Program-made: the position numbers and the translations under genes
The notes under the pieces: generated by a model
Database searches by the model: none
The model's input: only the letters and a program-made list of their open reading frames with translations
Told to the model about the DNA's origin: nothing
Shown: positions 22,470 through 61,821 of the stretch, in pieces
Layout of the letters: the number at the start of each line of letters is the position of its first letter
Numbering within the stretch: the stretch's first letter is position 1
Assembly (NCBI RefSeq): GCF_000004825.1
Contig: NW_008805063.1
Span: forward strand, 62,857 to 126,856
Reading direction: 5' to 3'
Source of the DNA: Heterostelium album PN500
Lineage: Eukaryota; Evosea; Eumycetozoa; Acytosteliales; Acytosteliaceae
DNA: 64,000 bases

Positions 22470-22704
22470 ACAATTTTTTGATATTAATGTTTGTTTGTGT
22501 TTTTATAAAATTTACTGTATTTACTTTTATTATTATTTTTGATTCTTTATTTTATTTTAGAATAGAGTTAATATGAAACTATTTTTTGAATGACAGAGAA
22601 ATTATGAAAAAAAAATGTGAAAAAAAAATTTAATTGAAGGTTAGTGTCAAAAATTTTTTCTAAAAAAAAAATAATTAACTTACTTGTTGTTAGAATGTAA
22701 AATT

Positions 22705-25700
22705 CTATTTGTTAATAAATTTGATGTATTGGAACACGACTGGTCGGAATTGATATCGAACACTGAGTAACCCAAGAAGTAAGATGTTTCTAGCAGCGTT
22801 CTTATCCCGGTGGTAGAAGTGACCACAGCCGCGACAGAGTGGCCTTTTCCATTTTTTCTCTTGGAATACTTTCAGGATCGGATGATCCTTAGCCAAGCCA
22901 TCAACATTTACATTGTTTCCAGACATTTGATTGGAATACAAAGAGTGGTGTTTCATATAGTCAAATCGTTCATTACTTTTATTAGTAGAACTATTGACTT
23001 TATTCGTACCATCTATGTATCCTGTGACTCTCTGGTGTAGTGTTGATAGTTGCTTGTGACACTCAGCTACTTGATTTCTATCGATGCTAACTGATTTGGA
23101 GTATGGTCCACTTGAAAGAGCACATGGCGGAGGATCTTTCATATTGCTAACTTTGTTGTTAAGTTTAGCAAGAATTTCCTTTTCCGTCTTGTTCCAACAT
23201 GCATTATGAACCTATATTATAAATATAAAAAAAAAAGATTAATTATTTAATTATTAAAAAATATATTTATAATTTGTGACAAATTTAAGTTGTACTTACT
23301 TTTGAGGTGTAGCATTCATTGATCCATAATGCTTTATGTTTTTTTTTCTTCACCCACTTGTAGAGAGTGGCTGAAGAAATGAAAGAAGAATGACCACGAC
23401 TGTTGTGGCTGAACTTTGCAGAACCAATAAAGACTATACTATTTTTGATTGGAACCAGTTTGTCTACCATTGCATTGTAGGATTTACGCTTTTTGTAGTA
23501 GTTATTCTTCTTCATTATTAGGTTGTACTCATCTAATCTAATGTTGAGATAGTTTCTTGTTGTTGTTGGGTGTAATCTAAGATAACTAATCCTGTTGCTA
23601 ATCAGTGATCTATCCAAACAGATATCATTGATATCTAAAGAAAAAATAATAAATAATATAATAAATTAATATCAATCTATATTAAAAATAAAAGGTGATA
23701 GTTTATACTTACTCTTACTAGGTGGAATTAGACTTTCAAACTTTAACATGGCTGGACCCAACATTTTCTTTTGAGCTTCCGAGTTGAAACGACTTCTTAA
23801 GTTAAGATAGTGTTCCTGTACAGAGAATGAGTGAGTTTTACCGTGTTCATCGATGGATACATGTGATGATCTTCCGCAATCGATTCCAAATATATATTTA
23901 TTATTAATATTATTATTATTAGGAGTTGTTGTAGTAGTTGTTGTTGTTGTTGTTGAAGGATAATCTATATCCATTTCCATTTCTAAAGCCGTGGAGTTGT
24001 TATTGGACTGAAGGCTATATTCGTCTCTTTCATTGACGAATCTACCTCCCTGGAAAATATAATTCGTCGTTCTTGGTCGCTTGTCGACATGATTGTATGT
24101 TTCAATTCTACTACGGCTACTATCGGTAGTGGATGTTGTTGTTGTAGATGTTGTAGATGGTGATGGATTAGAGGTTGGTGATGGTGCTGATAAAAAATTA
24201 GAGGATGGTGATGGTGCTGATAAAGAAGATGTTGGTAATATCAATGATTTTGTTGTTGCTGATGGTTTGAGTTTTAATAGTTTTGGTAAGGTATTGGATG
24301 ATTGTGGTTTTGTAGATGAAATGGTTGTTGTTGGTGATGTTGTAGATGGTGGGGGATTAGATGTTGATGGTGAGGGATTAGATGATGATGGTGCTGATAA
24401 AGAATTAGAAGATGATGATGGTGCTGATAAAAAATTAGAGGATGGTGATGGTGCTGATAAAGAAGATGTTGGTAATATCAATGATTTTGTTGTTGCTGAT
24501 GGTTTGAGTTTTAATAGTTTTGGTAAGGTATTGGATGATTGTGGTTTTGTAGATGAAATGGTTGTTGTTGGTGATGTTGTAGATGGTGGGGGATTAGATG
24601 TTGATGGTGAGGGATTAGATGATGATGGTGCTGATAATGAGGATGTTGGTAATATCAATGATTTTGTTGATGATGATGATGAATTGGGAGTTACAAATGC
24701 AAATTTAGAAGTTTTCTCGGGAATAGGTGGTGGTGGTGGAATATAGAGAGAGCCACTATTGGAAAAACACGACCTCTCCAGTTCAAAGGATATATCTGGC
24801 AAAAAACTCTCACAATTCTTTTGTAGTGTTGACTTTGATGGTGTTGTAAAAGCCTGATCTTCCAATTTATTCTCAAGACAATACTGGTAGTAATCCAATA
24901 AATTGAATTCTTCATCACTATCATTGTAATAATGAGTACTGCTGTCACTGTTTGTAGTGGATGCTGTTGAATGAATGGTAGTGCTAGATTGTGAAGATGA
25001 TGCCATTGATGTCTTGGGTGAAGGAAACACATGTGCCAAAGTAGATTGAGAATCAATATCCATTTTGAAATCTTTATCATATGTATTATTATTATTACTT
25101 GTTGCTGATGTATCAGCCGACAATTTGTTATAGTTGAATTGTATTGGCTTGGATGATGATGATGATAATGTTGGAATGGTTGGAATTAAAGGTGAAACTG
25201 CACTTGGAGAAGTTATTGGTGGTGATAAAGATGTTGTTGAGGTGGTGGTTGTTGTTTTAGTTGATGATGGTGGTGGTGGTGGTGGTGGAGATTTGTACTC
25301 CTTTACCATATCTTGAATGTATTGGAATTCTTTAAGATCCACGTTAAGCGATGAATGATACGGCTGTTTGGAGGGATGAATACTTTCATCATCTTCTCGT
25401 GTCTTTGGTTTCTTATACGTAATGGAGAAAGTGATTCCATTCAAAGATACAGTCGGTCCTATATATAGTTTTGATAAAATAATATTAATAAAATATCATA
25501 CTAAAATCAATAGATTCTAATTAATATTACCATCATAATCGTAACTGACTGTGTTGGTAGCATCCGATGGTTTGGTTTTAAAATTAAGTTTCTTTTCCTT
25601 GGCTGGATCTAGTATGAAATGTTTGGAATCTCCATCATACTTCGCCAATAGTCTGCTTGCCAATTCCAACTCAGGCTTCATAACTCCTGGGGTCGGATGG

Positions 25701-28396
25701 TTGGCAAATATGAACAATGTTGTTGGTCGTCCAGAGTGGTAAAGGATGTAGGATTCGATATTACCAGAGTTCTGATTTGAGATGTTATAGAGTGAATTTT
25801 GAATTGGCTTGCCCGAGAAAAGATGTAAGATGAAGCTCTGAGATTCCCAATCTGCCAATATAATCACTTTGTGGTTCCCTTCAATTATCTGATCCAACCA
25901 TGCCAATATATGAGGTAGTGATTGCTCCGGAATTCCAAAAGGTGAATAATTTGTAGAGGAGTAACTATTGGTTATAAAGAGTTTTGGAAGCACCTTTTTA
26001 TCTTTAAACACCGTATTAATAATTTTACCGAGCTTTTTAAAAGATGGATTGAAATCAGTGTCATCTGCGGTAAGTCCAACATGCCATTTACTGGTTGGAT
26101 CGCTGAATATGACACCTATATCACAATTCGGTGGAATTGATTCCATTCCTTGATAGTTTATATCACAGCCAACAAAAAATGGTGAATTGAAATGTTCTTG
26201 GTTGGGTTTCACAGAGGCGGTTGAAGCGTTGGTTGATGTCCAATTGATAGACGTTTGTTTTTGAGACGTAACCTCTATGATTGAATTTGGCTTTGATAGG
26301 TCTCTAATCCATTGGTTCTTCTTTTCAATATGAGGTTCGGAATCCAGTGATCCACATCGTATACTCTGGATACGCCATTCCGACTCCTTGAATTTAGAAA
26401 TGCAGCGGCTCCCACATTTACTTAGCTTGCACTTCTTCGAGAATGTAGAGTGCTCAGGGCAAAGCATAGCACCAACTTTCTTTTGCTTCGGGACAGTTAG
26501 AGTTAAATTGTTGGATGCTGCAAACATACATATTGTGTGTGCATTGGTGTGGTCGACTGAATCTACTGGTGGCACGTGTCCACAATGTGATTCACGATCC
26601 AAATTGAATTGACAAACGGTAAGAGGATGTTTAAACGTATAAAAATTTTGTTTGAACTGTTCCGGTATGTTGATTAATAATGAAAGATGATCCAGATAAC
26701 TTCCTTCTCGATTGAAATCGGAACCGTTATAGAATTGTTGAAGAAACTGTTGGAGAAACTTTGTAGATAAAATAAAGTTGCGAGGTGCCAATTTAAACTT
26801 TGGTATAAATTCATTTATTATGATTAGTTTGTTGTAGTTGTCATTGGCTTTTATCCATCGCGAATTATTATTTTTGAGTGGAATTGGTGAAGTTGATTGT
26901 TTGATTGAGTTGATCCATGCTTGAGATTCAGTTTTATAATTGTCTTCATTGTGATATTTTCCAAATTCTTTTTCAATATTTTGAAATTGATTAATTGTGT
27001 GTTGATTCCAATTGACTTTATTGTGTTGATTCTTCTTCTCCTCCTCTACCTCTTTCTCTTTCTCTTTCTCTTTCTCTTTCTCTTTCTCTTTCTCTTTCTC
27101 TTTCTCCTTCTTCTTCTCCTCCATATTTTGATGTACTCTTTGATTGTGCACTAAAGTGATTTATAAAATTATATAAATTAGAAAATAAAAATAATAAATA
27201 AAATTTTAAATAAAATTAAAGTATACATACAAATAATAGTTGGATGATTCAGAATAGATTGAATGAATTCCAATGCACTCGTACAATTCGTTTCACTAGA
27301 TTTTGTCACTGGCACCAAGTATGTTTCAAAATCATTTTTGAAAGATTTGTATCGGTCGAACGATTCTTTGGTGATTGTGGCGTCATGTTGTCGTAACGAT
27401 ATTAAAATTGAAGGCTCTCTCAAGGCCGAGTCTACGGTTTCCTCTGGCTTTGCAAGAAGGTACTTCTTGATGGATGTTACGATCGGACCAAAACCATTCA
27501 GCTCCATAATGTGTTTACTTATCCTTTCGATATTCAACAGATTCAAATTGGATTGATTCTTCATGTGGTCTCGTACAATTTGGTTGACCATCTCGTTGAA
27601 CCAGTCTCTATTCAAACTTCCAAGTCTGTTCTTTCCCAAACCATGTTCCTTGAGAAATGCCAGATAAACATCTTGATAAAGTTTTCGTAGAAACTTGTAA
27701 TTCTCATTCTCCTCGTCTCTCAGTAATGGTAGAACAACTACAAAATTAAAAAATCTTTTTAAAAAAAAAAAAAAAATTTCTTATTAATTTAATTGTTTAA
27801 AAAATACGAAAAACAAAAACAAACTTACTTGTCAACTAACTTTTGAACTTCTGGTTTCAAAATGAATTTATCTTTAGCAATTTCACTTTCTTTTAACTCT
27901 TTAATAATCTAAATTAGAGTAAATAATAAAAATTGATTAGTTTATAGAAATAAGAATAATTTAAAATTTTAAATCTTACTTTTTTTTCCTTATCTTTCAA
28001 ATCATACAATTTACTGTCAGAGAGGAACTGCAAAAGAATCACCTCACAAAGGTCAGTATTGTGTGAAATTTTACTTTTTGCAAAAAGCAATCTAAATTTA
28101 CTAATGCTCGCTTCATCTTTCCTAATATCCACCCATTCCTCTGGGATATCCGATTTTTTAAATGTTTGACTAAACATTTTCATATCAAAATCGATTTTAT
28201 TTACAATGTCGTGATATATTAATGAAAAACAATAGGAAAGTAATCCACTAATTTGCGATAATTGAATAAAAATTTTTTGGAGATGATTATTATTATTATT
28301 GACATTTCTATATAAATGATTATACGGATAAACGATAGTTTCCGTTTTGATCTCATTTTCAGATAGATGTTGATTATTGGAATATACATATTTCAT
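22705..28396 (-). CDS. Fanzor-like RNA-guided nuclease (eukaryotic TnpB relative), very large
   Basis: Seven exons: 27980-28396, 27829-27908, 27231-27754, 25531-27150, 23713-25458, 23300-23634, 22705-23211. They total 5229 nt, an open frame of 1742 aa. The C-terminal third carries the split RuvC nuclease of Fanzor proteins: RuvC-I Asp1407 in YIFGIDCGRSSHVS; the GSAKFSHNSRGHSSF segment; Glu1569 in WINECYTSK, which fits the relocated glutamate of the Fanzor D/N-E-F/Y-x-TSK motif; and Asp1710 in FYHRDKNAARNI. The zinc ribbon is His-x2-Cys (VHNAC) plus Cys-x2-Cys (CRGC), so one usual Cys is His. The first 880 residues have no domain I recognise; they contain a Cys/His-rich patch and a Lys-Glu repeat. 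Residues about 880-1400 are largely Pro/Ser/Thr low complexity. Known Fanzors are guided by an RNA from the element's own end; here this is inference. The acceptor of exon 3 (after a T17 run) is the least secure join. Confidence 0.8.
24178..24640. repeat. Tandem 237-bp duplication inside the Fanzor-like gene
   Basis: Two copies, the second starting 237 bp (79 codons) after the first (GAGGATGGTGATGG at 24201 and again at 24438). They look identical over about 205 bp. The unit encodes a Ser/Pro/Thr-rich segment containing NTLPKLLKLKPSATTKSLI. Frame is kept. Third-position identity implies a recent duplication or gene conversion. Confidence 0.85.
27040..27122. repeat. Microsatellite coding a Lys-Glu run
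   Basis: CTTTCT repeats (AGAAAG on the coding strand) in exon 4 of the Fanzor-like gene, encoding an alternating Lys-Glu stretch of about 25 residues, probably a highly charged helix. Confidence 0.85.
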
Positions 28397-29863
28397 ATTT
28401 AAACAAACAATAAATATTATATAAAAAATAATAAAAAATTATTAAAAAAAGGTTTTTCATAAAACTAAACAAAAAAATAAGTAAGAGTAAAATGTAAACA
28501 AATAAAAAGAAATCTAATAAGTATAATAAAAATAGATATATATATAAAAAATAATATTTTAAAAATAAAAGAAATAATAACTATTATATAAATTTGAAGA
28601 TTGTATTTGTTGTTAATTTGAAGGTTGTAAAGTAAAAAAATTAAAATGAAAAAATTTGGTTTTGATCAAAACAAAAAAGCATAGTTTTGTTGTATTGAGG
28701 CAAATTCTCTCCGTATTAAAAAAGAAAGGTTGAAAACTTAATTCCAAAAGTTTTTTACAAAGAATTGAGGATCAAGAAAAAAAAAAGAATCTTTTTCTAA
28801 TATCTAATATGATTGGTATGATCATACCAATATATTTAGCAAACATTCTAAATCGGGATATTTTTATAATTTTCTTCCAAACTTTGTGTTTGGATCATAT
28901 GAAAACTAAGTTTTGCAAAAAAAATGATGAATTTGAAAATAATATTTTTTTTAATTATATTTTGGTTTGGTTTTTTTTTTTGCAATAAAAACAAAAGAAA
29001 ACAGACATCTTAATTCATTCTTTTAAAATATAGTTATAATTTAATTATTATTTGAATATTTATCACCAAGATATACATGTAGTAAATTAGTAAATAAAGG
29101 TTAATTACTGGACAATGACCGATTAGCATGCATTTCAATAACAGAAACAATTACAAAGTTTGAGTTTAATAACAGAATTAGTTCTATTGCTCAACTAAAA
29201 AGTAAAATAAACATATAAACAAGCACATGTAATCATAGATTGGCTAAAAAGGATAGTGGATGTAATATTTATAAAGATATAGATTTATTTTATTTTTTCA
29301 CTTTTAAACAACTTTAATTAACTGACTGGTTAAACCATCATCATCATTCAGAGAATTCTATAGGAGAAGAGCAGCTGAGAAACGTGAACCTTTTAATTAT
29401 TGTCAAGATTTGGTGAAAACCAATGGTTTTATTTTAGCTAACTAATAATGCTTAGAGCAATTCAACATTGTTTCGAATGTCAAAGAAAATATATCGAGGA
29501 AATATAATGTTCATCAATTCGTGAACATTATGACCCCTCGTAACCTCTTTGGTATTATTCTACAAACAGGTAGACTGTTGGTCATGTGGTTATACATGGA
29601 TCAAAAGAGAGTTATTTAAAAAACAAAACACAATATATGTATTTAAAATTTAATAATAAAGAAAAAAATAAAACAATCTATAGATTTAATCATTAATAGA
29701 AATATTGTTAAAGAGGTGCATCAAACTAATACTTATTATCATGTGGCTATGCTTTTTTGTGTTTTGCTTTTTTTAAAAAAAAAAAAAATTTAAAGTTAGT
29801 GATTCTTTTTAATTATTTATATTTGATTTTTGATTCGTTATTTTAATTAAGTTTTATTTTAAA
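28397..29863. other. Divergent intergenic region between Fanzor-like and transposase-like genes
   Basis: AT-rich, 1467 bp, upstream of both genes. It contains a perfect 20-bp palindrome (28812-28831) and a hairpin (29504-29531). Two similar words, TCATGTGGTTATAC near 29583 and TCATGTGGCTATGC near 29740, occur in direct orientation. I could not find convincing terminal inverted repeats by eye. Confidence 0.5.
28812..28831. repeat. Perfect 20-bp palindrome
   Basis: ATTGGTATGATCATACCAAT equals its own reverse complement over all 20 bases. It lies in the divergent spacer, about 415 bp upstream of the Fanzor-like start. Confidence 0.9.
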
Positions 29864-32800
29864 ATGGCAAGCAGATTAACTACACAACAAAATAAGAGTA
29901 ATAATAGTCGATCATTGGCTCCCTCTTTCAATAATTATACACAAGGAGTGTTGAATTCAATAAAATCAGTTAGTGATCCAAACACTAAACCAGTCAAGAG
30001 TAATCGTTATAAGGACTATAGTAAATTATCAGAGAGGTCTGGTAATAAAAGTAAAGTTTTAAATTTAATAACAACTTCAGTAAATGTAATAGCATCACCA
30101 AAAAAACATAACGAAGTAACGATTGATCAACAGACACATTTAATGAAAGATTGGTTAACAAAGAATACCACTGGAAAGCAGGTACACTATTGACTACTAT
30201 ACATATCATAAACTGTTGTTTTGAATGATTATTGTTAATATTTTAACTATAAATATATTCAGGTTCTTGAAGAATTAAAGAAAGATGGTAGTATAGCTGC
30301 AACAGAAGAATTCAGAAAGCGATATAAGGAGATATATGAAGAGATACCTGGAGCAACCACACATGCTGTTGCGTTGTCATATGTTATTTCATCACTTCAG
30401 AGTGGCCAATATACAGATAGAGATGGATATGAAAAAACAAGGTAAGTGTTTTGTAATGCTCGCGATTTTGTATATCATTGATACTAATATTCCCAATCTA
30501 GATTGTTATCAAGTTTAGTTCCTTTTTACACTTCTAAGGAAATCAGAGAGTTTGGAATCACAATAGATAATAATGCGTGGAATCATGCAATTCAACACGT
30601 ACACAAGTATGGTGCAGGTAGACTGATTAATGCAGAAGAGATCAGCAATTGGAGATCTAAATTTACACACAATGGACAAATGACAAGAAGACAAAGAACC
30701 ACGATGCTAAGGACAGCCGTCGAAGGTTACTTCAATATGAAAGATATAACTGAAGAATCAAGTAAAAACATGAGGTTGTACAGCAAAGAACTCGACGCAG
30801 ATGGTAAACGAGCATTCGAGTTGGTGTCAATCAAGAACCTTGCTTTAGGAAACATAAATACCTGCTTTACAGATTACCTCAAGAAGAGTGAAGTTGATCA
30901 AGTCAAGTATCCACTCATGGGTAGAAGTGCATTTTACAGTTTCGTACCAGAGTATGTCAGAGAAATGAAGAATCGAACCGACATGTGTCCAATGTGTGTT
31001 CAGTATCAGGCTCTCGAGTCAAAACGAATTAAGTTTGGGCAACTTTCAGATCAAGATCATAAACTGTTTGAAATCTTGACTATTCACAAGATGTTTGTTC
31101 AGCAAAGAAAGAATGATTATTTGACATGTGTAATTATAATTTTATTAATACATTTAGCTAATGATTTATTAATGAAATTTTTTTTTTTTTTTTATTTAGA
31201 AAAATGAGTTAAAGGTAGGAGAGTGTATTATTCTCTGTGATTTTAAAGAGAATATATCATTAGGTAAATCCAAAGTGCAAGTAAGCCATGAATTTTACCA
31301 ACAACCTGCTCGTACCTTCTTTGGAATGGTCCTCTTCTATAAGCAAGGTGACAAGCTGAAGATTCACTACTATGACTGTCTTTCACAAGTACTTAATCAC
31401 TGTTCGACATTTGCAATTTCATGTCTCGACAAATTAATCAATGATCCATTATTCACCAGTCTAAATATCAACAAAATTACATTTTGGTGTGATAATGCTA
31501 GACACTTCAAGTCAAATGAAATACTTTCATATATGCATACATTGTCAAAGTTGCAAGTAGCTGATCCAAACACTCCAAACAAAACCAAAAGAAAGTATCT
31601 CGTCGAATTGAATACTTTTGCACCCTATCACGGAAAGAGTGAATGCGATCAACATTTTTCAATGGTTTCTAGAGCGATAGCAGACAAGTCGAGTTTCAAA
31701 GATTCAATCTATACAGATCAAGATGTTATCAATGCAATCAAGAGTACCACTGACAACAACAACTATCAAAGAACATACAAATTGACTTCTGAATCAGAGA
31801 AGGAGGCTGTTACCATCAAAGTAACAGTCGAAATTCATAACCCAAAGGAATTGAAACAGAAAGAAATAAGATCTTTCCTGGTTTTACAGAGTATCATCGT
31901 TTCCAGTTTTTAGATAATAGATCAGTAAGTTAATCAATTATATAATTTGTATTCAAAACAATTATTAATCAATATTTTTTTATAAAAAAAAGATGCGTGC
32001 CAATAAACATTACATTAAATTCATGGGTGGAAATGAAGTTGACAAAATGACTATCTACAAATATTCTGCTATGAAAAGTCAAGTTGGTAAAGAGACTACA
32101 ATTTCCAGAGGCTACGAATCGACCACCAAGGAGGAGGCACAGTCTTGGAAACCAGCTCGAGATAAGGCACATACCACCTATCTAAACACCATGATAGAAA
32201 TGAATACGATTGCCGACAACGAATCAAATAAGGATAAGGCAAAAGAGATGAGCGATATTATAAATACTTATACCAAAGTAACATCTAAATTAGCTCCACA
32301 ACCCACACCTTCAAGAACACAACAAATTGTTTCATCACCTCAGTCACCATCTCAACCAACACTTTCAAAATCACAAGCTGCTTCTACTTCATCTCAATCT
32401 TCACCAAAACCAGCTACCACAACTACACCAGACCAAACACTCTCTGGTACAAACAAAAGAAGAAGAGGCTACAGAGGAACAAAGAAAACAAAACAGACTA
32501 ATTCACAAAATAATACAGAGAATAATACACAAAATAATACACAGATTAATAAACAAAATAATTCACAAAATAGTACACAAAATAATAAACAAAATAATAC
32601 ACAGAATAATACACAGAACAATACACATAATAATACACAAAGTAAACCATTGTTTGATATCGAGTCGATTGATTTTGGTGACGATGATCATGATATCGGA
32701 TCCGATATTCAATCGAGCTTGATTTATAGTGGTAAAAGAAAAGAAAGAGAGGATGATTGTGACAATAATAGTCAACATAAAAAAATAAATAACCAAATAA

Positions 32801-33592
32801 ATAACAATAATAATAATAACAATCCAACAAAAAAAAAGAATAAGAGAAGAAGATAATAATCAAGAATCAATGGACAATCAAAAACATCACAAATCAACTC
32901 ATGTAAATAGTCAAACACCAATCCAATCCCCATCCCAAACACCAATTCAAACACCATCCCAAACACCAATCCAAACACCAATTCCAACACAATCCCAAAC
33001 TCCAATCCAAACTCCATCTCAATCACCAATCCAATCTCCAACCCAAACACCACTCCATACTCCTATTCAACACAACACTACAGTGCAATCAACGGAACAA
33101 TCAAAACCAGCAAAAGAAATTGTCGTAATCTTTGAAATCGATAACAATTACAACTCGCAGATTCAAGATTATAGACAACAACAACAAATCAACTATTTAC
33201 AACAAATTTCACAAACACTGCAACAACAATCTCCACTACAGTCAGAAGCAGCAGCATCAAATGATGTAGAAATGACATCACATGAAGATCCTATCATGGA
33301 ACAAGTTGAGGAAACTGACGATGCAATGGAGATCGATCGATTCTGTATTCCATATGAAAAGATCAAGGACCAGTTGAATACCGCAGAAGAAGACGAAAAC
33401 ATGAACAATGCCGGTGACTTCTTATCCAATTGGCCATCTCTACGAGAACTTATTATAAGAATTCCATGCCTCACAGCCATAGCGGACTATGGACAGCTCT
33501 TCTCCACTCTACTCATTAAGAACCCATTATCAAACCTGGTAATAAGACCAATTCAAAATATGATTGGAAATGTTTTAAAATCATTTTTATAA
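29864..33592 (+). pseudogene. DDE-transposase-like gene with low-complexity tail, apparently damaged
   Basis: Start ATG at 29864. Coding exons: 29864-30181, 30263-30441, 30502-31129, from 31200, and from 31993 after a GTAAGT intron. The central region has CDFKENISLG, then FWCDNARHFKSNEIL, then APYHGKSECDQHFSM. Three acidic residues spaced like this, with the HGK-x2-CD ending, are what I expect of an RNase-H-fold (DDE/D) transposase catalytic core. A Cys pair (DMCPMC) precedes it. The downstream part (YIKFMGGNEVDKMTIYKYS onward) is Ser/Gln/Asn-rich with many QTPIQ repeats and ends KSFL at 33592. The reading frame seems to change about twice in the 3' half, once at an A-run, so the gene is decayed or the assembly has indels there. 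I cannot name the transposon superfamily. It could also be a domesticated gene. Confidence 0.55.
32905..33070. repeat. Short tandem repeats coding Gln-Thr-Pro-Ile motifs
   Basis: Degenerate 12- and 24-bp repeats of CCAATCCAAACACC type, encoding QTPIQ/SPSQTPIQ units in the tail of the transposase-like gene. Confidence 0.8.
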
Positions 33593-34091
33593 TTCAAATT
33601 TTATTATAATCTTTTTGGTATGTGGAGAGGTTTAGTCATAAAAGATAGTGTAAGTAATAATTGTTTTATTTTAATGAATACAGATTACTAATTTTTATTT
33701 CTTTGACATATCTTTAGTGGATCATAATTATTCAATAATTTTTGATTGCTTGTTTTGAAATAGTATATGCAGTAGTGTGTAAAGAATCTTGCAATCAATT
33801 CGCCTATTTTTTCATTTGTTGTTATGGGTTTGATGAAGCTATGTATATGTTCGGATGGGAGTCTGGTCTAGTACATTTCAAATCAAATTTATTTCAACAT
33901 TGAATAAGGTGATTTTGGTTATTAACAAAAACACAATTCAACATGTGAGCACTTTGCTATATTATTTTAGAATAACTTTCTAACATATAACTTAAAGACT
34001 TTTAATTGGAATCTCTTCTCATAGTAACTGTATTTTTACAAATAGACATATTCCGCATGCGGACCTTATTTTTAACCTTATATATAAAAGC
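33593..34091. other. Intergenic region with tRNA-flanking palindrome
   Basis: AT-rich spacer between the transposase-like gene and tRNA-Gln. It contains CCGCATGCGG at 34053-34062 (separate entry). No coding signal seen. Confidence 0.6.
34053..34062. promoter_or_regulatory. CCGCATGCGG palindrome downstream of tRNA-Gln
   Basis: A 10-bp perfect palindrome, very GC-rich in AT-rich DNA, 29 nt past the 3' end of tRNA-Gln. The same element follows the other two tRNA genes in the window. Function unknown. Confidence 0.7.
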
Positions 34092-34163
34092 TTGCTCTGC
34101 TGAGATTCGAACTCAGATGACTGGATTCAAAGTCCAGGATACTAACCCTTATATGACAGAGCA
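34092..34163 (-). tRNA. tRNA-Gln(TTG)
   Basis: A 72-nt cloverleaf on the minus strand: acceptor TGCTCTG/CAGAGCA with discriminator A, D-arm with AAGGGTTAGT, anticodon arm CTGGA-CTTTGAA-TCCAG with anticodon TTG, and T-arm CTGAG-TTCGAAT-CTCAG. No intron. It reads CAA, the Gln codon that dominates the polyQ tracts nearby. Confidence 0.95.
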
Positions 34164-34360
34164 ATTGATGTTTTTTTAAAAAAAAACTTATCTTTATAAA
34201 ATTTTTTCTCATAAAATTTTTTCTTGTATCTCTTTTCAATTTTGAATCATTAATAAAAAAATTGAGTAATTTTTAAAAATTAAAAATAATTTTCTTAGTT
34301 TAAATTGTCTTTTATAAATTTTTCATTTATCTTTTTATTCAACATTGGTGATTCAAATAA

Positions 34361-61731: not shown

Positions 61732-61821
61732 TCCGACTTGCCAGACTCGAACTAGCAACCTTTTGATATCTCTTGTGATTCTTACTACAGTCAAACACTC
61801 TACCACTTGAGTTAAAGTCGG
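61732..61821 (-). tRNA. tRNA-Tyr(GTA) with intron
   Basis: A 90-nt gene: acceptor CCGACTT/AAGTCGG with discriminator A, D-arm ACTC-AAGTGGTA-GAGT, anticodon stem TTTGA/TCAAA with anticodon GTA, and T-arm GCTAG-TTCGAGT-CTGGC. A 17-nt intron (TAAGAATCACAAGAGAT) sits one base 3' of the anticodon, the canonical place. Mature length is 73 nt. Introns in tRNA-Tyr are near universal in eukaryotes. Confidence 0.95.

Follow-up and report, generated by a model that had tools for sequence, protein, structure and literature searches.

A probable, divergent Fanzor1-type nuclease gene carried as cargo by a Sola2-type transposon in a dictyostelid genome

Fanzors are RNA-guided nucleases of eukaryotes, and our literature search for them together with the name of the host or the element returned a single paper, Bao and Jurka 2013 (PMC3627910). 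According to that paper, Polysphondylium pallidum PN500 holds seven Fanzor1 families. Three of these, PPa-1, PPa-4 and PPa-5, are Sola2-Fanzor chimeras: over the 5′ 7 kb they share 98% identity, and in their 3′ parts they differ completely; they have 21-bp imperfect repeats and are accompanied by ATAT, AAAT or ATTT duplications. Here we analyse a stretch of 64,000 nucleotides from Heterostelium album PN500 (contig NW_008805063.1, positions 62,857 to 126,856, forward strand; the window), which probably contains a divergent Fanzor1-type nuclease gene travelling as cargo of a Sola2 DNA transposon. The find is mostly not new, since Sola2 elements carrying Fanzor1 were published for such a slime mould in 2013 (PMC3627910). 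Its unusual and interesting part is the build of the protein, which is oversized and has a remodelled zinc ribbon.

The window family resembles PPa-1, PPa-4 and PPa-5 in several respects. A Sola2 end of ~7 kb is near identical across families (here 28931-33976, plus ~2.08 kb found in other copies), the terminal repeats are imperfect, ATAT is duplicated, and the same Sola2 end carries at least two other cargo types within the genome. Unlike those families, for which the text calls a C4-type zinc finger (four cysteines) strictly conserved (PMC3627910), the protein encoded here has three cysteines and one histidine (C3H). The window family may well be one of the three. Like SpuFz1 and other Fanzor1 proteins, the window protein has a D-E-D triad with a displaced glutamate, and the end of its gene faces the end of the transposon (PMC10432273, PMC11423790). 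Most Fanzor1 proteins are 600-700 aa long (PMC11423790), whereas this one reaches 1,740 aa (~2.5 times that size), of which the front half takes up ~900 aa and the linker 450 aa, and its zinc ribbon is split. The half that holds RuvC-III and the zinc ribbon aligns with bacterial TnpB (PF07282, NF040570), from which the window protein differs by its displaced glutamate, its introns and a front half that matches no family.

The gene lies on the minus strand from 28396 to 22705. Spliced from the window sequence, its seven predicted exons join in one open frame, all six introns being GT-AG, and the product has 1,740 or 1,742 aa according to the choice between two donors six bases apart (23719 / 23713). 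A first, sequence-only reading of this DNA had proposed seven exons joined in a 1742-aa frame, which is confirmed, 1,742 being the length obtained with the second donor. The exons and catalytic codons are as follows.

27980..28396, minus strand: exon 1, with the start codon at 28396; from the splice model, junctions the same in the copies on contigs C4 and C14
27829..27908, minus strand: exon 2; from the splice model, junctions the same in the C4 and C14 copies
27231..27754, minus strand: exon 3; from the splice model, with the weakest acceptor (AAAAAG), junctions the same in the C4 and C14 copies
25531..27150, minus strand: exon 4, coding for the bulk of the front half, which is called REC-like on account of its position alone; two paralogs share LCPxH...C...C
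23719..25458, minus strand: exon 5, the VSLNGITFSI strand, the ~450-aa linker and then RuvC-I; alternative donor at 23713
23300..23634, minus strand: exon 6, RuvC-II; from the splice model and paralog alignment
22705..23211, minus strand: exon 7, split zinc ribbon (HNAC ... CRGC), RuvC-III and stop codon
23879..23881, minus strand: codon of the RuvC-I aspartate D1407 (FGIDCG), invariant in two paralogs
23315..23317, minus strand: codon of the RuvC-II glutamate E1567 (INECYTSK), from paralog alignment; six residues ahead of the first zinc-ligand position
22804..22806, minus strand: codon of the RuvC-III aspartate D1708 (HRDKNAARN), from paralog alignment

The weakest junction of the gene is the exon 3 acceptor (27754, AAAAAG); a better-looking acceptor at 27737 destroys the frame. 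Such a weak acceptor, together with the 450-aa low-complexity stretch that separates the front half from RuvC-I, could indicate that two genes have been wrongly fused, one in front made up of exons 1-4 and another, the C-terminal Fanzor gene, made up of exons 5-7. Two paralogs on contig C3 speak to the contrary. In both, a counterpart of the front region and RuvC-I lie within a single open frame (880 aa in C3a, 643 aa in C3b). Used as a query, C3b recovers three exons of the window gene, 6 and 7 at E ~1e-7 and 4 weakly (E 0.0025). Since both paralogs hold the two parts in one frame, the join of the front half to RuvC-I is supported, and the two-gene model, which we consider highly improbable, was dropped. 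Junctions in C3a and C3b were picked by eye, and that following RuvC-I in C3b is uncertain.

Within the single-gene protein, the front half of ~900 aa is followed by a low-complexity linker of ~450 aa, 53% of which is S, T or P. Exon 5 also encodes the strand VSLNGITFSI, which we take to be WED-like. A block of ~260 bp is duplicated in the linker (24145-24640, copies 95% alike), and exon 5 is longer in the C4 and C14 copies than in the window copy.

The three acidic residues D1407, E1567 and D1708 are placed at Fanzor spacing in the C-terminus, exactly where the sequence-only reading had sited them (FGIDCG, INECYTSK and HRDKNAARN). The gaps between motifs are 6 residues from E to zinc, 162 from D to TS and 6 from CxxC to D. 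A pattern of D-X(125-275)-[TS][TS] with RD within 5-50 residues of the zinc finger characterizes Fanzor1 and TnpB (Bao and Jurka 2013, PMC3627910), and the window protein displays it with gaps of 162 and 5. The term Ealt has been given to a displaced glutamate that precedes the zinc motif by six residues (PMC10711439); E1567 stands six residues ahead of H1574, the first zinc-ligand position, in agreement with this fingerprint and with the earlier claim that the RuvC-II glutamate is displaced. Although C3a and C3b share only 30-31% identity with the window protein over the RuvC part and 23-25% over the front half, all three proteins keep the acidic residues, N-E-x-x-T-S and R-D-x-N-A-x-R-N-I-L. 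The acidic residues are kept in the C4 copy as well.

Profile searches gave a match at the limit of detection. PF07282 scored 26.3 bits against the spliced window core, exactly its cut-off of 26.3; it matched 3/3 family members (window, C3a and C3b) at E up to 1, and exon 7 alone at E 1.3e-4 (22.4 bits, under the cut-off). Comparison by hhalign with a profile of TnpB cores (78 of 80 fetched TnpB loci) scored 48.9 at a probability of 88%, while none of 100 column shuffles exceeded 26.3 and the reversed alignment scored 13.8. The sequence-only reading had named the lack of any TnpB/Fanzor hit as a refutation; a hit was obtained, albeit a thin one. Among PHROGs, the window protein matched one family of unknown function (E 0.07) and another member matched a transposase family (E 0.01); viral contigs gave 15 pattern matches and no relatives. 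Searched with the front half, solved structures returned nothing of worth (best E 0.29, an amino acid transporter) and Pfam one weak Big_2 match (E 0.4), with no family matched.

Further copies of the gene allowed its substitutions to be compared. The C4 copy aligns with the window over 11,570 columns at 97.3%, all its junctions are kept and its frame stays open for 1,769 aa. On C14, the alignment runs from 22570 to 31927 at 98.0%, stopping 1.8 kb from the contig start; the junctions of that copy are kept, but it has a frameshift in the low-complexity exon 5. Of 58 changes between the window and C4, 21.5 are synonymous (counted as 22) and 36.5 are non-synonymous, compared with a synonymous site share of 0.21 (P = 0.003), and the RuvC part has 7 synonymous and 8 non-synonymous changes (P = 0.018); the corresponding dN/dS is 0.45 overall and 0.28 in the RuvC part, on substitution counts that are small and copy pairs that are not independent. 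Because the window-C4 changes favour synonymous sites and two paralogs keep D, E and D, we regard the observation as more than chance.

The synonymous excess also bears on domestication, which the sequence-only reading had offered as one outcome. If the host had retained the gene here to serve some function of the cell once the transposon had died, this would account for the excess, and for a frame that is open despite a frameshifted transposase and a lost transposon end (see below). However, the C4 copy is equally open in a two-ended element, so that selection may stem from the mobile phase, which accounts for the synonymous excess as well as present use does. The copies are, moreover, perhaps too young to decay, silent-site divergence between them being ~1-2% over the gene and up to 3.5% in the RuvC part. 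Domestication found no direct support, and we hold it to be quite unlikely.

The preferred reading, a Fanzor1-type gene borne by a transposon, draws on a context that the sequence-only reading did not include: the nuclease gene is the cargo of a Sola2-type element. A transposase gene lies head to head with it, inside the Sola2 module, and the window copy comprises the following parts besides the nuclease exons.

29864..33592, plus strand: Sola2-type transposase gene, several exons; frameshifted relative to the copies on contigs C4, C14 and C17
28931..33976, no strand: Sola2 module, incomplete, sharing 97% identity with a further copy on contig C14; breaks off at 33976
22575..22704, minus strand: 3′ untranslated stretch up to the Fanzor-side terminus, where a guide-RNA scaffold would be expected
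22571..22574, no strand: ATAT, taken as one half of a 4-bp target-site duplication whose partner was lost with the other end

The Fanzor-side terminus is at 22575, 130 bp past the stop codon and beside ATAT. At the opposite side, five other copies continue beyond 33976 with shared sequence, and on C4, C14 and C17 the true Sola2-side terminus is reached ~2.08 kb further on; the window copy has therefore lost its Sola2-side end. Read inward, the terminal sequences are GTTAAATTTTTTTCAATGATAG and GAAACTATTTTTTGAATGACAG, an imperfect terminal repeat. These ends were defined from the copies, a simple inverted-repeat scan having drowned in AT-rich noise (514 pairs, the 25 longest inspected). Without one of its ends and with a frameshift in its transposase, the window copy is probably not able to move by itself, and the earlier suggestion of a mobile enzyme is doubtful for this copy. 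The name Sola2 is given because the element resembles those described by Bao and Jurka 2013 and does not come from a family model, Pfam having returned no significant match for the two transposase frames scanned.

The break at 33976 lies 113 bp short of a tRNA-Gln gene (34090-34164). Some dictyostelid elements insert next to tRNA genes, and a later insertion or rearrangement by the tRNA-Gln gene may have removed the transposon end.

Both ends were searched genome-wide at ≤3 mismatches. There were 10 places with the Fanzor-side end and 38 with the Sola2-side end, and neither reversed control had a single match; 3/10 Fanzor-side ends have a correctly oriented Sola2-side end within 14 kb (on contigs C4, C8 and C9, judged by position). 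Parts of 28931-33976 recur at many further places (at least 65 matches, with 37 of 116 candidates scored). The counts of the two ends suggest that many Sola2 ends are joined to other, unlike 3′ parts. Lost ends would likewise lower the number of paired Fanzor-side and Sola2-side ends. The C8 and C9 elements are ~1.7 kb long and hold mere scraps of the nuclease gene, like the ghost elements of Spizellomyces (PMC10432273). Both have ATAT on either side, in keeping with the AT-rich 4-bp target-site duplication that is a Sola2 trait; the window copy is one-ended.

The other cargo types on the Sola2 end were followed on two contigs. That on C14 has NEF-x-TS and NRD motifs by eye and no Pfam hit; that on C8 could not be traced to its C-terminus. 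In another Sola2 element on C14 (L038:2952-4751), a 600-aa open frame lies between the RuvC-I-like and RuvC-II-like parts of the cargo gene; its matches to BRCT are weak (E 0.005 and 0.008) and do not reach their cut-offs.

The 3′ untranslated stretch, where the guide scaffold would lie, is unchanged at all 129 aligned sites (2 gap columns) when the window is compared with either C4 or C14. Rfam at gathering scores found three tRNAs and nothing else in the whole window. One of these, a 90-nt tRNA on the minus strand at 61732-61821, was called by Rfam and not by ARAGORN, and perhaps bears an intron. The 3′ untranslated stretch also contains a splice-donor-like CAACAAGTAAGT at 22683 (minus strand), present in the diverged relatives L026 and L027, which could splice outward into flanking DNA.

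By analogy with described Fanzors (PMC10432273, PMC11423790), the window protein would be guided by RNA. It would bind an RNA transcribed through the Fanzor-side end, the guide being the host flank just outside. Excision by the transposase would leave an emptied donor site of the form flank-ATAT-flank, ATAT having been duplicated on insertion. A guide starting just past the duplication could then direct cutting of this emptied site, with ATAT as or within the adjacent recognition motif, and repair of the cut from an uncut copy would restore the element. Deprived of its Sola2 end and with a frameshifted transposase, the window copy would at most act in trans, providing nuclease for other copies and for the short ghost elements.

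A number of results weigh against the reading as a Fanzor1-type gene carried by a transposon. RuvC-I reads DCG in the window, C4 and C14 copies and DPG in both paralogs, DPG being found 'near exclusively' in Fanzors (PMC10711439). Of the zinc ribbon reported by the sequence-only reading, the HNAC (H-x2-C) and CRGC (C-x2-C) pairs are present, but they supply three cysteines and a histidine and stand 120 residues apart, whereas in a C4-type finger 12-18 residues separate the pairs (PMC3627910; also the search pattern used in PMC10711439). The second pair is CRCC in the C4 and C14 copies, and the alignment places no CxxC pairs at the zinc-ribbon position of either paralog; the zinc finger is described as present in 'many', not all, TnpBs and Fanzors (PMC10711439). 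Because the DPG and the four-cysteine finger were looked for and are lacking, we class the window protein, on its sequence, as Fanzor1-like and divergent. In the family searches, PF07282 gave 0 matches at E up to 0.001 against the raw genome (32.9 Mb, 39 contigs); the significant part of the hhalign result is 32 columns round RuvC-III, the RuvC-I aspartates pairing solely in a forced alignment; among NCBIfam models the window protein had no match, NF040570 matching 1/3 members (E 0.003, not the window); and a search of solved structures with the core, alone or as a profile, brought up no chain named TnpB, Cas12 or Fanzor. As to selection, the RuvC parts of C4 and C14 differ by 1 non-synonymous and 0 synonymous changes, and dN/dS in the linker is 0.55-0.78. 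The 151-nt 3′ end folds no better than shuffles (z -0.48, 63/200 as good), and adding coding sequence gives a mild signal (z -2.1, 6/200 as good). Finally, the C4 element, though two-ended, is flanked by ATTT on one side and ATAT on the other, which do not match, and its transposase differs by one base from the other compared copies, elsewhere than the window frameshift; because of this base we cannot call any copy fully intact.

Some of these features would fit a nuclease-dead or decaying relative that binds RNA or DNA without cutting, or that has no activity: the C3H ligands with their 120-aa gap, DCG, the paralogs without CxxC pairs and the frameshifted C14 copy. The window, C4 and both paralogs nevertheless keep all three acidic residues, and synonymous changes are in excess in the RuvC part between the window and C4. 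Loss of activity seems unlikely to us, if less so than domestication, and we favour a divergent Fanzor1-type nuclease carried by a Sola2 transposon.

The front half, of ~900 aa, is roughly the size given for the Cas12a REC insertion (PMC10432273). As a tentative proposal, which we regard as possible and rather doubtful, slime-mould Fanzor1s might be a lineage that moved independently to a Cas12a-like build, with a ~900-aa front half, a zinc ribbon lost or remodelled and an active RuvC kept, and a single Sola2 chassis might time and again swap such nucleases as cargo.

Why transposons carry Fanzors is unsettled. Two-ended, broken and nuclease-less copies occur here in one amoeba genome, so that the idea that the nuclease serves to retain the element can be tested. 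An oversized protein with a changed zinc ribbon would, in addition, show how far the Fanzor frame stretches.

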